DNA of 64,000 bases, taken from NCBI RefSeq assembly GCF_003097535.1, contig NZ_CP029187.1:868001-932000 (forward strand), given 5' to 3'. Origin of the DNA: Flavobacterium pallidum (GTDB taxonomy: Bacteria > Bacteroidota > Bacteroidia > Flavobacteriales > Flavobacteriaceae). Under the pieces are notes generated by a model that saw only the letters and a program-made list of their open reading frames with translations, was not told the DNA's origin and did no database searches. Below, in pieces: positions 16,869 through 62,749 of the stretch. The position numbers and the translations under genes are program-made. Within the stretch, counting starts at the first letter, position 1. Every line of letters begins with the position of its first letter.

Positions 16869-16980
16869 TGGGCACCTCCCGTTATTGCTTCCTGCGTCGC
16901 AATAACGGGAACGGGCTGTCCGCTATATCTTTTTTAACCCTGCGGGATTAAAAAAGGATGCCGCTTCCATCCCTGGCGCA
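16869..16980. repeat. dispersed intergenic repeat, copy 2 (type A)
   Basis: It has a perfect 11-bp inverted pair CCCGTTATTGC (16878-16888) and GCAATAACGGG (16899-16909), then TCCGCT, TCTTTTTTAA, a short GC loop, TTAAAAAAGGAT, CCGCTTCCATCCCTGGCGCA. It aligns with copy 1 at 7363-7459 in reverse orientation. It lies between the sprE start and the ABC operon terminator. Confidence 0.7.
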
Positions 16981-16992
16981 AATCTTCCTAAA

Positions 16993-55938: not shown

Positions 55939-55955
55939 GGTCTGAGTTTGTGCTA

Positions 55956-55963
55956 CAAATATA
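55956..55963 (-). promoter_or_regulatory. -7 promoter element of the M23-GH3 operon
   Basis: Minus strand TATATTTG, 17 bp before the ATG at 55938. Confidence 0.55.
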
Positions 55964-56076
55964 AAAATTTATCAATGCCCGTTTTGGAAAGCGCCATAAC
56001 ATAACGCGGGCTTTCTTTTTTATTTTAAAAAAATCACAAATAAAAAGCGTAGTTTCATTAGGCAGAAGATTTTTTA

Positions 56077-56084
56077 TACCTTTG
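56077..56084 (+). promoter_or_regulatory. -7 promoter element of the tatA pair
   Basis: TACCTTTG with a TTTC at 56053-56056 about 20 bp upstream, 23 bp before the ATG at 56108. Confidence 0.6.
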
Positions 56085-56107
56085 TTGCCTTATTTTAATA
56101 TGAATAT

Positions 56108-56362
56108 ATGGTTTCTTCAATAGTTTTTCTTGGCGAATTTGGTGGTCCGGAAGTAATTTTCGTCATTATAATTATCCTGCTGCTTTTTGGTGGCAAGAAA
56201 ATTCCGGAATTGATGAGAGGCCTTGGAAGCGGTGTAAAAGAGTTTAAGAATGCTGCAAAAGAGGATACCCCGGCACAGAAAAAACCCGCTTCAACAGACC
56301 CGATAGCGCCTACTTCTCCATTAACGCCGCCACCGGCGCCACAGGATGAAGAAAAGGCTTAG
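56108..56362 (+). CDS. TatA/TatE-type twin-arginine translocase component (first)
   Basis: 84 residues. One N-terminal membrane helix ([12 protein letters not shown]), the [21 protein letters not shown] hinge and amphipathic helix, and a Pro-rich tail. TatA forms the pore for folded Tat substrates. The next gene, 55 bp away, is a close copy. No tatC lies nearby. Confidence 0.92.
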
Positions 56363-56417
56363 AATTTTGATTTCAATTGATTAATGCCTATCTTTAGGTG
56401 AAATAAAAACAAAAAAG

Positions 56418-56618
56418 ATGAATATATTATATGTTTTCCTTGGTGAAATCACTCCGATGAAAGTGATTCTTGTCCTTGCGATTGTTTTGCTGATGTTTGG
56501 CGGCAAGAAAATTCCCGAACTGATGCGAGGGCTTGGAAGCGGCGTAAAAGAATTCAAGAATGCTGCGAAAGGAGAAGATGAAGCTCCTGCTGCACATAGA
56601 GAAGACGAAAAGATTTAA
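56418..56618 (+). CDS. TatA/TatE-type twin-arginine translocase component (second)
   Basis: 66 residues with the same layout. The stretch [25 protein letters not shown] is identical to the first copy; the membrane helix (VILVLAIVLLMF) and short tail differ. The pair is a tandem duplication. A terminator follows at once. Confidence 0.92.
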   Translation: MNILYVFLGEITPMKVILVLAIVLLMFGGKKIPELMRGLGSGVKEFKNAAKGEDEAPAAHREDEKI

Positions 56619-56650: not shown

Positions 56651-58770
56651 ATAATCATACTGAGCTGCACTCTTTTCCTGGCTTCATCTACGTCGGTCAC
56701 TTTTACCTGAACGTGCTGGTGCAGTTTCACCACTTCATTCACATCGGAAACAAACCCCGCTTTGAGTTGGGAAATGTGTACCAACCCGCTTTCCTTGATG
56801 CCGACATCTACAAAACAGCCGAAATTTGTAATATTATTTACAATTCCCGGCAATACCATTCCAGTTTTTAAATCGGAAATCGTACGGACATTGCTATCGA
56901 ATTCAAACACTTTTGCGGACTTCCGTGGATCAAGCCCGGGCTTTTCCAATTCGCGGATAATGTCTTTCAGTCCAAGCAATCCGATTTCAGGTGTAACATA
57001 TTTATCCGCTGAAATCAATGCGGTTTTTTCCTTATTGGCAATCAGTTCATGTACTGAAATCTTCAGGTCTTTCGCCATTTTTTCGACTAAAGGATAACTT
57101 TCAGGATGCACTGCTGAATTGTCCAGCGGATTTCTGGCATTTGAAATCCTGATGAAAGCCGCGCCCTGCTGGAATGCTTTTTCGCCCAGCCTTGGCACTT
57201 TCTTTAATTGCTTCCGATCTTCAAAAGGCCCGTTTTCTGAACGGTATTGCACGATATTTTCAGCCAGTTTTTCCCCGATTCCGCTCACATACGACAGCAG
57301 ATGCCTGCTCGCCGTGTTAACGTTCACACCAACCGAATTTACACAGCGCATCACTACCGTATCCAATTCCTCTTTCAGTTTTCCCTGATCGACATCATGC
57401 TGGTATTGGCCTACGCCAATGGCTTTAGGGTCGATTTTCACCAATTCTGCCAATGGATCCGATAATCTCCTTCCAATGGAAACCGATCCGCGAACCGTCA
57501 CATCATATGACGGGAACTCATCGCGCGCAATTTTGGATGCGGAATAAACCGAAGCGCCGGCCTCACTGACCACAAAAACCTGCACGGGCTTATCAAACGC
57601 GATTTTCTTGATGAAAAATTCGGTTTCGCGTGACGCGGTTCCGTTCCCGATAGCGATGGCCTCAATTTTATAGGCATTGACCATCGACTTTATTTTTTTC
57701 ATTGCAATGGCGCTTTCATTTTGCGGCGCGTGCGGATAAATGGTTTCATTGTAAAGTAAGTCGCCTTTTTCATCCAGGCACACGATTTTACAGCCACTGC
57801 GGTAGCCGGGATCTATTGCTAAAATCCTCTTTTCGCCTAAAGGGGCTGCCAAAAGCAACTGACTTAAATTCGCCGCGAAAACCTGGATCGAATTCGCATC
57901 TGCTTTGGCTTTGGCTTCCTGCAATGCTTCATTCGAAATCGCCGGTAACAGCAATCGTTTCAGGCTGTCACCGATGGCCAGTTGTATGTGTGGTGTGGTG
58001 TCATTATGTTTTTTTATGATAATCTGGCTAACCAGATCAAAAGCTTCCTCAGGATCAGTTTCAATCTTAAGCTTTACAAATCCTTCATTTTCTGCCCGCA
58101 GCATCGCCAGCAAACGGTGCGGCGGTGCTTTGGCCAGGTTTTCGGACCAGTCGAAATACTGGCTGAATTTCTGCGCAGCTTCATCGTCCTTTTTCGATCT
58201 GGAGACTTTGGTTTCAATGAGTCCGGTGCGGTGGTATAAACGGCGCAATTGCCTGCGTACATAGATATTTTCATTGACCCACTCGGCAATGATATCGCGC
58301 GCACCCTGTAATGCCTCATCTTCGTTCTTTACATTTTTATTCAGGAAACGCGTCGAGACGAAATCGACATCGTCATTCCCTTGCGCCATAATGATTTTAG
58401 CCAAGGGTTCAAGTCCGTTTTCGCGGGCTACATCGGCGCGTGTCTTTTTCTTTTTCTTAAAAGGGAGGTACAAATCCTCGAGCTCCTGAAGGTCGAAACT
58501 TTGCTCGATTTTCTGGCGGAATTCAGGCGTGAGCGCATTTTGCTCGGCAACCGATTTCACGATGGTTTCCTTGCGTTTGATGATGGCTTGGTACCCGGAA
58601 TTCAGTTTTGCAATCTGCTCGACGACAACCTCATCGAGGTTTCCGGTCTGATCTTTGCGATAGCGGGAAATGAATGGGATAGTACAGTCTTCGGCCAGGA
58701 GCTTCAGCGTGTTTTCAATGTTTTTGGGTGCGGTATTTACAAGGTTTTGTATGAATTGGACAGCCGTCAT
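56647..58770 (-). CDS. tex: Tex family RNA-binding transcription accessory protein
   Basis: 707 residues. In order: helical Tex N-terminal region, YqgF-like RNase H fold (RILAIDPGYRSGCKIVCLD, about residue 315), helix-hairpin-helix (ASRHLLSYVSGIGEKLAENIVQYR) and a C-terminal S1 domain (GMVLPGIVNNITNFGCFVDVG). Tex proteins bind nucleic acid and affect transcription and stress tolerance. It starts 22 bp after the HTH gene. Confidence 0.96.
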   Translation of the reverse strand: MTAVQFIQNLVNTAPKNIENTLKLLAEDCTIPFISRYRKDQTGNLDEVVVEQIAKLNSGYQAIIKRKETIVKSVAEQNALTPEFRQKIEQSFDLQELEDLYLPFKKKKKTRADVARENGLEPLAKIIMAQGNDDVDFVSTRFLNKNVKNEDEALQGARDIIAEWVNENIYVRRQLRRLYHRTGLIETKVSRSKKDDEAAQKFSQYFDWSENLAKAPPHRLLAMLRAENEGFVKLKIETDPEEAFDLVSQIIIKKHNDTTPHIQLAIGDSLKRLLLPAISNEALQEAKAKADANSIQVFAANLSQLLLAAPLGEKRILAIDPGYRSGCKIVCLDEKGDLLYNETIYPHAPQNESAIAMKKIKSMVNAYKIEAIAIGNGTASRETEFFIKKIAFDKPVQVFVVSEAGASVYSASKIARDEFPSYDVTVRGSVSIGRRLSDPLAELVKIDPKAIGVGQYQHDVDQGKLKEELDTVVMRCVNSVGVNVNTASRHLLSYVSGIGEKLAENIVQYRSENGPFEDRKQLKKVPRLGEKAFQQGAAFIRISNARNPLDNSAVHPESYPLVEKMAKDLKISVHELIANKEKTALISADKYVTPEIGLLGLKDIIRELEKPGLDPRKSAKVFEFDSNVRTISDLKTGMVLPGIVNNITNFGCFVDVGIKESGLVHISQLKAGFVSDVNEVVKLHQHVQVKVTDVDEARKRVQLSMII

Positions 58771-59465: not shown

Positions 59466-59897
59466 CTAGCTGCAAGCTATTTTATCCACGCGGTTGGCAT
59501 GGCGTCCGCCTTCAAAAGCGGTATTCAGGAACGTATCGACCATCTCCACAGCCTGCGGGATTGAAGTGAACCGCGCCGGGATGCTGATGATATTTGCATT
59601 ATTATGTTGGCGCGCCAGCGCCGAAATTTCCTTGGTCCAGCATAAAGCTGAACGGATGCCCTGGTGTTTGTTGACGGTCATGTTGATACCGTTTCCGCTT
59701 CCGCAGATGACGATGCCGAAGTCCGCATTTCCATTTTCGACATCCTGAGCGACGGGATGCCCGAAATCCGGATAATCCACGCTGTCCGTAGTATCTGTTC
59801 CGTGGTTGGTTACCTGATGCCCTTTTTCTTCGAGCATTTTGACGATCGCTTTTTTATAATCAGGGCCTGCGTGGTCGTTTCCGATGGAGATTTTCAT
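59466..59897 (-). CDS. rpiB: ribose 5-phosphate isomerase B
   Basis: 143 residues. ISIGNDHAGPDYK and DYPDFG are the ligand-binding parts; the catalytic Cys is in FGIVICGSGNGI. It interconverts ribose 5-phosphate and ribulose 5-phosphate in the pentose phosphate pathway. It borders the large gene-free interval and is transcribed away from it. Confidence 0.96.
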   Translation of the reverse strand: MKISIGNDHAGPDYKKAIVKMLEEKGHQVTNHGTDTTDSVDYPDFGHPVAQDVENGNADFGIVICGSGNGINMTVNKHQGIRSALCWTKEISALARQHNNANIISIPARFTSIPQAVEMVDTFLNTAFEGGRHANRVDKIACS

Positions 59898-60565
59898 GTT
59901 ATCGTGTTAAGTTGTGTCGCACAAAGTTAGTTACAATCTTTTACAAAGGCAATGAGCCGTGCTTCCTTTAAGTTTAATTCAAATTCCTTTGCAGAAATGT
60001 TAAATTATTTCAATGTTGATACATTTTACAAACGCTTGATATTCAGTCAACTTTAAATTAACAGCTTTTGTTTATAACTTAAAAACGATTTTTAGAAGTT
60101 TTTTTTGGTCGTACGGATTAAATTCCTAATCCAAAACAGTATTGACAAATCCAAGAAATGTTTGATGAATTTTTTGAAGAGTTATCCCTATTTTTTTTGT
60201 GCTTATCAACATGTTTGATCAAACAATTTTGCAACAAAAACTACCTGTTCTGAATTATCAACAACTGTTAATTAAACCTAAAAATTTCTTCATTTTCAGT
60301 CTTTTGCAATGTAAAATTAATGTTAGTAAATTGTTATAACAAGTATAAACTACATAGCAATGCCATCTTTTAAAAATTTATTGTAGCTATCAACACGCTA
60401 TAATAACCACCAAAATTTTAAAATTCTATTTTCTTTTTTTTGTGATGTTTTTAAATGTTGTTGAAAACTTGGATGTGTTGGAGCGTTATATTTTTTATAA
60501 ATGTTAAAGCGAATGAAAGCGTTGTAGATTCTTATTCGTAATTTTCCGCTTTAAGAAAAAAATAT
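59898..60565. other. 668-bp AT-rich gene-free interval; candidate replication origin
   Basis: No convincing gene is present on either strand. TATCAACA occurs four times: inverted in TGTTGATAC (60014-60022) and direct in TTATCAACA (60203-60211), TTATCAACA (60255-60263) and CTATCAACA (60387-60395). TTATCAACA differs by one base from the DnaA box TTATCCACA. A perfect palindrome GTTTGATCAAAC (60213-60224) follows the second site, and AT-only runs lie around 60370-60440. Genes on the left run mostly left and those on the right run right, as around an origin. No dnaA gene is adjacent, so this rests on motifs and gene direction. Confidence 0.5.
59922..59952 (-). promoter_or_regulatory. promoter of rpiB
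   Basis: Minus strand TAACTTTG (59929-59922), with TTG at 59952-59950, a 20-bp spacer. It is 24 bp before the ATG. Confidence 0.55.
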
Positions 60566-62749
60566 ATGAGTCACAAGCCAAAAAAGTTTGGAAAGAAAGA
60601 GAAAGACTTCTCAGGGAAAATACTAAAAATACTCGCTGCACACGCCAATAAGGGTTTTAACCACAAGCAGATTGCAGCCATCCTCGATGTTGACGATACC
60701 AAAAGCCGAAACGAAATTATAAAGGACCTTAAAATCCTTGCTTCCCAGAATAAAATCATAGAATCAGAACCCGGAAAATATTTAGTGAAAGCCATCAGTA
60801 AGGATTATTATGAAGGCACGATCGATATGACCAGCAGGAAAACAGCCTATTTTATTTGTAAAGATGAATTTGCTGAAGATGTTTTTATTCCGACAAACAA
60901 CCTCAATCATGCACTCGATAAGGACAAAGTCAAAGTGTATGTTTACAACCGACGCAAAGGCAAACGTCCTGAAGGCGAGGTCATTGAAATCGTGGAACGA
61001 AGCAAAACCGAGTTCGTCGGCGTGATCGATATCCAAAAGAATTTTGCTTTCGTTTCTACCGCCAATGCCAAAATGTATACCGATATTTTTATCCCGAAAG
61101 ATAAGATAGGCGATGCCGAACAAGGGGATGTCGTGATTGCAAAAATCGAAGACTGGCCGAAAAAAGCTGACAGTCCTTTCGGTTCTATCATAAAGGTACT
61201 TGGAAAACCTGGTGAACATGATACTGAAATCCATGCGATTTTAGCAGAATACGGTTTGCCTTATGACTTCCCGATCGATGTGGAAGTATTTGCGCAAAAG
61301 CTTGATACGGAAATCCATCCCGAAGAAATCGCCAGGCGCCGCGACATGCGTGATACGCTGACATTTACGATTGACCCTAAAGATGCAAAGGATTTTGATG
61401 ATGCCCTGTCCTTCAAAAAGCTGGAAAATGGCAACTACGAAATCGGGATCCACATTGCCGATGTGTCCTACTATCTCGAAGAAGGAACTATTCTTGACGA
61501 TGAAGCATACCAACGAGGCACTTCGGTATATCTCGTAGACCGCGTGGTACCGATGCTTCCGGAGGTGTTGTCGAATTTCGCGTGTTCGCTTCGTCCGAAC
61601 GAAGAAAAATATACTTTTTCAGCGATTTTTGAATTGACGGAAAAAGCAGTGGTCGTCAACCAGTGGTTCGGACGGACCGTGATTTATTCGGACCAGCGTT
61701 TTGCTTATGAGGAAGCCCAGTATATCATAGAAACAAAAGACGAAACCATCCCTGCAGAAATCTCCCTGACCGGTGAAGCTTATCCTGTTCCCGATCCGAT
61801 TGTGGAAGCCACTTTAAAGCTCGATGAGCTTGCTAAAATTTTACGATCAAAAAGAATGGCCGATGGTGCGATTTCTTTCGATAAAGTCGAAGTGAAATTC
61901 AACCTGAACGAAAATGCAGAACCTGTCGGCGTGTACTTTAAGCAATCTAAAGATGCGAATCACCTGATTGAGGAATTTATGCTTTTAGCCAACAGGAAAG
62001 TGGCGGAATTCATCGGAAAACAAAAGAAAACCTTCGTGTACCGGATCCACGATGAGCCAAATGAGGACAAATTAATGAACCTTCAGGGCATCATTTCAAA
62101 ATTCGGCTACAGCATCAATTTCAAATCCAAAAAAGATATTTCGCAGTCGCTGAACAACTTACTAGAAAATGTCCAGGGAAAAAAAGAGCAAAATCTTGTA
62201 GATACCCTGACCATCCGAAGCATGAGCAAAGCCAAATATTCAACGGATAATATAGGCCATTACGGTCTGGCGTTCGATTATTATTCGCATTTCACTTCGC
62301 CAATCCGCCGTTATCCTGACGTGATGGTGCACCGCCTGCTGCAATATTATCTCGATGGCGGCAAATCAGTAAGTGAGGAATTGTATGAAGAAAAATGTGA
62401 GCACGCCTCTAATATGGAATCTTTAGCCACCAATGCCGAACGCGACAGCATCAAGTACATGCAGGTCAAATACATGCAGGACCATCAGGATGAGGAATTT
62501 TTGGGAGTGATTTCCGGTGTTACCGAATGGGGAATTTACGTGGAAATCCTGGCAAACAAATGTGAAGGCATGTGCCGTATCCGTGAAATCAAAGACGATT
62601 ATTATACGTTTGATGAGAAGCAATATGCGCTGGTTGGAGAAGTTTCAAAAAATATACTGCAACTCGGTGACGAAGTTTTCGTTAAGGTAAAAAATGCCGA
62701 TCTGGTGAAGAAACAGCTTGATTTCCATTTCATCCGGCGCAATGAATAA
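60566..62749 (+). CDS. rnr: ribonuclease R
   Basis: 727 residues. In order: a basic N-terminal winged-helix region, two cold-shock/OB domains (YEGTIDMTSRKTAYF and TEFVGVIDIQKNFAFV), the RNB catalytic domain with the metal-binding IDPKDAKDFDDALS and later YSHFTSPIRRYPDVMVHRL, and a C-terminal S1 domain (FLGVISGVTEWGIYVEI). It degrades structured RNA 3' to 5' and acts in RNA quality control. It runs away from the gene-free interval. Confidence 0.97.
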   Translation: MSHKPKKFGKKEKDFSGKILKILAAHANKGFNHKQIAAILDVDDTKSRNEIIKDLKILASQNKIIESEPGKYLVKAISKDYYEGTIDMTSRKTAYFICKDEFAEDVFIPTNNLNHALDKDKVKVYVYNRRKGKRPEGEVIEIVERSKTEFVGVIDIQKNFAFVSTANAKMYTDIFIPKDKIGDAEQGDVVIAKIEDWPKKADSPFGSIIKVLGKPGEHDTEIHAILAEYGLPYDFPIDVEVFAQKLDTEIHPEEIARRRDMRDTLTFTIDPKDAKDFDDALSFKKLENGNYEIGIHIADVSYYLEEGTILDDEAYQRGTSVYLVDRVVPMLPEVLSNFACSLRPNEEKYTFSAIFELTEKAVVVNQWFGRTVIYSDQRFAYEEAQYIIETKDETIPAEISLTGEAYPVPDPIVEATLKLDELAKILRSKRMADGAISFDKVEVKFNLNENAEPVGVYFKQSKDANHLIEEFMLLANRKVAEFIGKQKKTFVYRIHDEPNEDKLMNLQGIISKFGYSINFKSKKDISQSLNNLLENVQGKKEQNLVDTLTIRSMSKAKYSTDNIGHYGLAFDYYSHFTSPIRRYPDVMVHRLLQYYLDGGKSVSEELYEEKCEHASNMESLATNAERDSIKYMQVKYMQDHQDEEFLGVISGVTEWGIYVEILANKCEGMCRIREIKDDYYTFDEKQYALVGEVSKNILQLGDEVFVKVKNADLVKKQLDFHFIRRNE

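Follow-up and report, generated by a model that had tools for sequence, protein, structure and literature searches.

A predicted replication origin between rpiB and rnr in a Flavobacterium chromosome, and the apparent move of its conserved core within the genus

The chromosome of Flavobacterium pallidum is complete in a single contig of 3,552,756 bp (3.55 Mb) whose record begins at dnaA (positions 415–900). Within the window, by which we mean the whole 64,000-nucleotide stretch analysed here (868,001–932,000), rpiB and rnr point outward from an intergenic region of 668 bp that lies not beside dnaA but 0.93 Mb distant from it (927,898–928,565). A preliminary description of the window had proposed this gap as a candidate oriC; its sequence and coordinates are as described, with all of the motifs present. 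The features of the locus, in window coordinates, are as follows.

59466–59897, minus strand: rpiB (ribose-5-phosphate isomerase B), left flank; Pfam LacAB_rpiB, 2e-57
59898–60565, no strand: rpiB–rnr intergenic region, predicted chromosomal oriC (GC-skew sign change, box cluster, synteny in relatives)
59998–60470, no strand: conserved origin core, about 430–470 bp (85-gap alignment; core search matches here at 60068–60186 and 60372–60470)
60014–60022, minus strand: DnaA-box-like site GTATCAACA, in relatives TATTAACA (gap alignment and box search)
60203–60211, plus strand: DnaA-box-like site TTATCAACA (box search, gap alignment)
60213–60224, no strand: palindrome GTTTGATCAAAC, one base past a box; not conserved, probably outside the origin
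60255–60263, plus strand: DnaA-box-like site TTATCAACA (box search, gap alignment)
60387–60395, plus strand: DnaA-box-like site CTATCAACA, heading the strongly conserved block TATYAACACGCTATAATAACCA (gap alignment)
60396–60458, no strand: candidate duplex-unwinding element, AT-rich, between two inward-pointing box-like sites (GC content; putative role)
60459–60467, minus strand: DnaA-box-like site TTTTCAACA (box search, gap alignment)
60566–62749, plus strand: rnr (ribonuclease R), right flank; Pfam RNB, 2.7e-111

Whether this is by far the longest gene-free stretch of the window, as had been claimed, depends on what is counted as a gene. With open reading frames (ORFs) of at least 60 aa taken as genes, the gap leads with 635 bp, ahead of the left edge of the window (608 bp) and the next stretch (175 bp), but at a cut-off of 100 aa the left edge (739 bp) exceeds the gap (668 bp), and 55939–56559 (621 bp), which contains two shorter ORFs of 84 and 66 aa, comes close behind. 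A riboswitch or other known RNA in the gap was rejected, as Rfam gave no match there. Elsewhere in the window, two Flavo-1 RNAs (RF01705; 7359–7448, plus strand, and 16905–16982, minus strand) scored above the gathering threshold.

The 8-mer TATCAACA occurs four times in the gap, at 60014–60021 (minus strand), 60204–60211, 60256–60263 and 60388–60395 (all plus strand). The preliminary description had counted four copies, two of them extended to TTATCAACA, and both counts are correct, although only the two qualify as 9-mers. In 20,000 Markov shuffles of the gap TATCAACA never appeared more than twice, while the whole window holds 8 copies against 2.47 expected, a number reached by none of 100 shuffles (maximum 7). 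When 668-bp segments were moved in 100-bp steps along 844 kb of the genome, those with at least three copies all overlapped the rpiB–rnr gap; an equal density of the motif elsewhere, raised earlier as a possibility, was not seen in the part scanned. Genome-wide there are 72 copies of TTATCAACA and 20 of the reversed control word, so that little can be read from an isolated box and it is the cluster that counts. These boxes are of the TTATCAACA type; TTATCCACA was rejected as the box, with no copy in this gap and occurrences in only 1 of 85 rpiB–rnr gaps.

The lowest-GC 60-mers of the gap (17%) begin at 60399–60400 and 60411–60412 and extend into the box at 60459, placing the AT-rich segment directly beside the boxes at 60387 and 60459; another low-GC 60-mer (18%) lies at 60047. 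By the rule of at least three NAN trios within 16 bp of a box (PMC8287927, available text), read by eye, no DnaA-trios follow box 60387 within the allowed spacer, and the minimal CTG-TTA-ATT run after box 60255 (box strand) overlaps a reverse box-like word. The palindrome GTTTGATCAAAC is present one base past a box, as had been noted, and is absent from the other parts of the genome sampled, but it did not survive as an origin element, being missing from all 99 other rpiB–rnr gaps, that of the nearest relative included.

Skew across the chromosome was assessed in forty 20-kb stretches (approximately 23% coverage). If the chromosome is divided at the gap and at the point opposite (the antipode, 2.70 Mb), the left arm has negative skew in 18 of 19 stretches and the right arm positive skew in 18 of 21, so that 36 of 40 fit. 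Of the four exceptions, those with midpoints at 2.674 and 2.763 Mb are close to the antipode, and those at 1.253 and 2.141 Mb have skew near zero. Dividing at the gap gives a split score of 8536, against 8840 at the best sampled place (868–896 kb), a plateau just left of the gap that is set by the sampling, and 290 at dnaA, where skew is negative to the left and to the right of position 1. A skew minimum elsewhere had been named as grounds for abandoning the origin, and the sign turns at the gap and near the antipode, not at dnaA. Within an unbroken 104 kb surrounding the gap, cumulative G−C is lowest at window position 58,387, which is 1.5 kb left of the gap and within the Tex gene, and the purine curve reaches its lowest point at 60,552; no keto–amino minimum was found near the gap in the same 104 kb. 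For the terminus, a search with one dif consensus gave only a three-mismatch match near 911 kb (1 match against 15 for the reversed control), and this unconvincing outcome leaves skew as the basis for its position.

Three parS-like sites with at most one mismatch to the consensus searched are located at 943,538, 943,577 and 945,483 and include the only exact match in the genome. They span 943,538–945,498 (L036:11538-13498), flank mnmG and are found 15–17 kb to the right of the gap, inside a radius of about 20 kb around the predicted origin. One other one-mismatch site is at 2,130,859, two mismatches give 17 places against 9 for the control, and parB is at 1.99 Mb. At up to one mismatch, parS-like sites also flank mnmG in G073, G051 and G148, one adjoins mnmG in G092, and seven lie 17–18 kb from the core in G042; the 41-kb views of G143, G103 and G101 showed none.

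The same turn of skew recurs in relatives. Ten stretches in each of eight complete genomes were scored for a flip at rpiB, and six of the eight behave like the genome of the window: 57 of 60 stretches fit in G073, G042 and G051 (same genus) and G143, G148 and G092 (other families). In G103, 9 of 10 stretches fit and in G101, with rpiB at 121,898, only 3 of 10. In 41-kb views (104 kb for the window's own genome), the densest TTNTYAACA cluster sits beside rpiB or in the rpiB–rnr gap in G000, G073, G042, G051, G143 and G092; in G148 the densest cluster, of two boxes, lies together with the skew minimum 11 kb from rpiB, and no cluster was found at rpiB in G103 or G101. The wider pattern TTNTYMACA, in views of 6–10 kb, occurs at least three times at rpiB also in G148, G107, G118, G141, G128, G010, G036, G045 and G019, twice each in G103 and G120, and three times about 3 kb away in G116. 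No such cluster was found at rpiB, in views of this size, in G022, G058, G076, G027, G084 (same genus) or G101, and origins in these six genomes may lie elsewhere.

Both genes were present in 100 of 110 loci examined (own genome among them), and in all 100 they are divergent and separated by a gap of at least 64% AT. Alignment of the 85 gaps of 600–1300 bp (15 outside this range were excluded) revealed conserved blocks spanning window positions 59998–60470 and rich in TTNTYAACA words, of which there are on average 5.62 per gap against 0.64 expected; 84 of the 85 gaps hold at least three, where 1.8 were expected. The window's own gap, with only three, has the lowest count of the set save one. 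Conservation between a single pair of species was rejected as proof of an origin, since the 77% identity of the gap to that of G073 (shuffled control 38–46%) is close to the 72–73% of two gaps beside mnmG; at fourfold sites in rnr, 89 of 253 are identical. As a separate observation, 77 of the 100 gaps carry a conserved small ORF of about 77–79 aa (77 aa in locus L132) with no Pfam match, situated between core and rnr where seen and absent from the window and its nearest relative.

A core match of at least 50 bits was obtained in 77 same-genus genomes, including that of the window, while eight further genomes of the genus with rpiB gave none at this threshold, among them G019 with its box cluster at rpiB. 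Among the 77, the core lies within 1.5 kb of rpiB in 69 (all on the strand opposite to rpiB), and at 1.9 kb in one, with two matches left unplaced. In the remaining five (G009, G011, G020, G072 and G080; the G020 match is partial, 148 bases and 52.7 bits), it is 220–794 bp upstream of gltX and 11–16 kb from rpiB.

Flavobacterium enshiense DK69 (G150; loci L107 and L267) has the same arrangement. Its rpiB–rnr gap, 388 bp long, contains the small ORF (51% identical) and lacks TTNTYAACA; among the places listed, five TTRTYAACA words fall within 400 bp on a different contig from rpiB–rnr. A stretch there matches the F. cheniae core at 69.6% identity over 431 columns (E 1e-40). It is located 350 bp upstream of gltX, and on the side away from gltX its neighbours are a 1106-aa ORF and mnmG. 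The 1106-aa ORF is 63% identical to the 1132-aa ORF (Pfam DUF4175, below cut-off) that separates gltX from mnmG in the window's genome, where gltX is 57 bp from this ORF by longest ORFs, or 144 bp from the conserved gltX start, and where the core search beside gltX found no match. Of 19 further rpiB loci, 17 contain both genes; 14 of their gaps measure 970–2873 bp with 4–8 boxes, and the three short ones belong to G011 (386 bp, one box), G080 (391 bp, one box) and G027 (168 bp, none). In DK69, G080 and G011 the core is missing from the rpiB–rnr gap, yet rpiB and rnr are still adjacent, which indicates that the core is not tied to these genes. A cumulative G−C minimum lies approximately 450 bp from the core in the 15-kb gltX piece of DK69, and a second local minimum falls inside rnr in the 10 kb examined at the old rpiB–rnr locus; as local skew tracks gene direction, neither is decisive.

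Rnr assigns the window's genome to Flavobacterium. An Rnr tree was built from 43 rows (42 loci and the window; 8 of 50 loci were dropped for want of a usable reading, and G009, G072 and G020 are not among the rows). In it DK69, G011 and G080 nest inside the genus with a single change (support 79/92; recovered in 81% of 200 bootstrap trees), which makes the gltX position look derived. GltX is 95% identical to that of DK69 in G009, 79 and 80% in G072 and G020, and 85% in G078, whose core is beside rpiB; that G072 and G020 are less alike than G078 hints at a second move, judged from sequence comparison. A published genome of F. enshiense, strain R6S-5-6, has its skew-defined origin at gltX according to the available text (PMC9867689), and the core upstream of gltX in the related strain DK69 offers a reason for that placement.

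Three other readings of the gap deserve consideration. Ori-Finder places the origin of other Flavobacteriaceae at mnmG (gidA), here 15 kb to the right, and two reports, on [Bizionia]-related and on Mariniflexile genomes, name mnmG and state that GC skew agrees (PMC12843772, PMC11278836; a figure legend in the latter has oriC and ter swapped). Although the parS-like sites of the present genome flank mnmG, skew is mostly positive over the 15 kb before it (only one of eight 2-kb bins from 60 to 76 kb is negative), the gaps on either side of it lack a TTNTYMACA box, and the box cluster is upstream of rpiB rather than at mnmG in 10-kb views of G148, G107, G118 and G141. An offset of 15 kb would, moreover, hardly be visible on a whole-genome skew plot, and we regard an origin at mnmG in this chromosome as highly improbable.

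An origin beside dnaA is the common bacterial arrangement, and the rotation of the record to dnaA would suit it, but the negative skew on either side of position 1 and its low split score make this reading scarcely credible; Bacteroidetes origins are, besides, commonly far from dnaA (PMC4755523, available text). It could also be argued that the gap is simply a long regulatory region, its boxes serving as DnaA-regulated promoter sites, and a gap between divergent genes must indeed contain their promoters. Promoter function alone, however, fits poorly with a whole-chromosome skew that turns at this gap, with a core beside gltX in six genomes and with its loss from rpiB–rnr in DK69, G080 and G011, and we consider this reading very unlikely as well.

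The candidate oriC is supported by the skew turn, the box cluster, synteny and the conserved core, and parS-like sites lie nearby. It remains a prediction drawn from sequence, but one that we make with strong confidence: chromosome replication in this Flavobacterium very probably starts in the rpiB–rnr gap. DnaA, whose gene is 0.93 Mb from the gap, would bind the cluster of TTATCAACA-type boxes in the core and could open the AT-rich segment at about 60396–60458 between the inward-pointing boxes at 60387 and 60459; two forks would then start, the left passing through rpiB and the right through rnr, to meet near 2.7 Mb. With the same core at gltX in some species, and a published skew origin at gltX in a strain of F. 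enshiense, the core looks like a portable origin unit. Our favoured, moderately confident reading is that the Flavobacterium origin is such a unit of about 430 bp, with an ancestral place upstream of rpiB common to other families, and that it moved as a whole, 11–16 kb to the gltX gap, one or more times: once in a lineage comprising F. enshiense, G011, G080 and, probably, G009, and perhaps as an independent event in G072 and G020. The core would have kept its replichore orientation and remained within the parS neighbourhood, rpiB and rnr would have remained together (as checked in DK69, G011 and G080), and origin function would have moved along, the cores at gltX presumably being active.

An origin far from dnaA is of a kind already known in Bacteroidetes (PMC4755523, available text). 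Two points are new: in several families of the order the origin is linked to rpiB, and within a single genus the core has apparently moved. Our search of openly accessible literature found no paper that names rpiB–rnr as an origin or describes such a move. The start point would be corrected for chromosomes whose records are rotated to dnaA, this one included, altering how gene dosage, strand bias and coverage-based growth-rate estimates are read, and experiments gain a DnaA box specific to the genus together with a short core of defined limits. The gltX cores amount to a natural experiment that asks whether sequence or genomic setting makes an origin, and they bear on how an essential and usually immobile site can change place.

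Comparison with described systems, taken from the available text of each report, places the predicted origin among several relatives in kind. The predicted oriC of Prevotella intermedia and other Bacteroidetes (DoriC; PMC4755523) is likewise skew-defined, far from dnaA and furnished with multiple DnaA boxes, but P. intermedia is another species with another locus and E. coli-type boxes, whereas here the boxes are TTNTYAACA and the flanks rpiB and rnr. Elizabethkingia meningoseptica (PMC8994065) has a 649-bp predicted oriC, also far from dnaA and with three box motifs, and differs in its TTATCCACA boxes with at most one mismatch. The basal unwinding system of Bacillus subtilis oriC (PMC8287927, PMC10721633) similarly sets boxes beside an unwinding site, but employs DnaA-trios, of which the window's core has no clear run by eye at boxes 60255 and 60387. 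F. enshiense R6S-5-6 (PMC9867689) is a member of the same genus whose origin was likewise placed where skew turns from negative to positive, there at gltX and in the window at rpiB.
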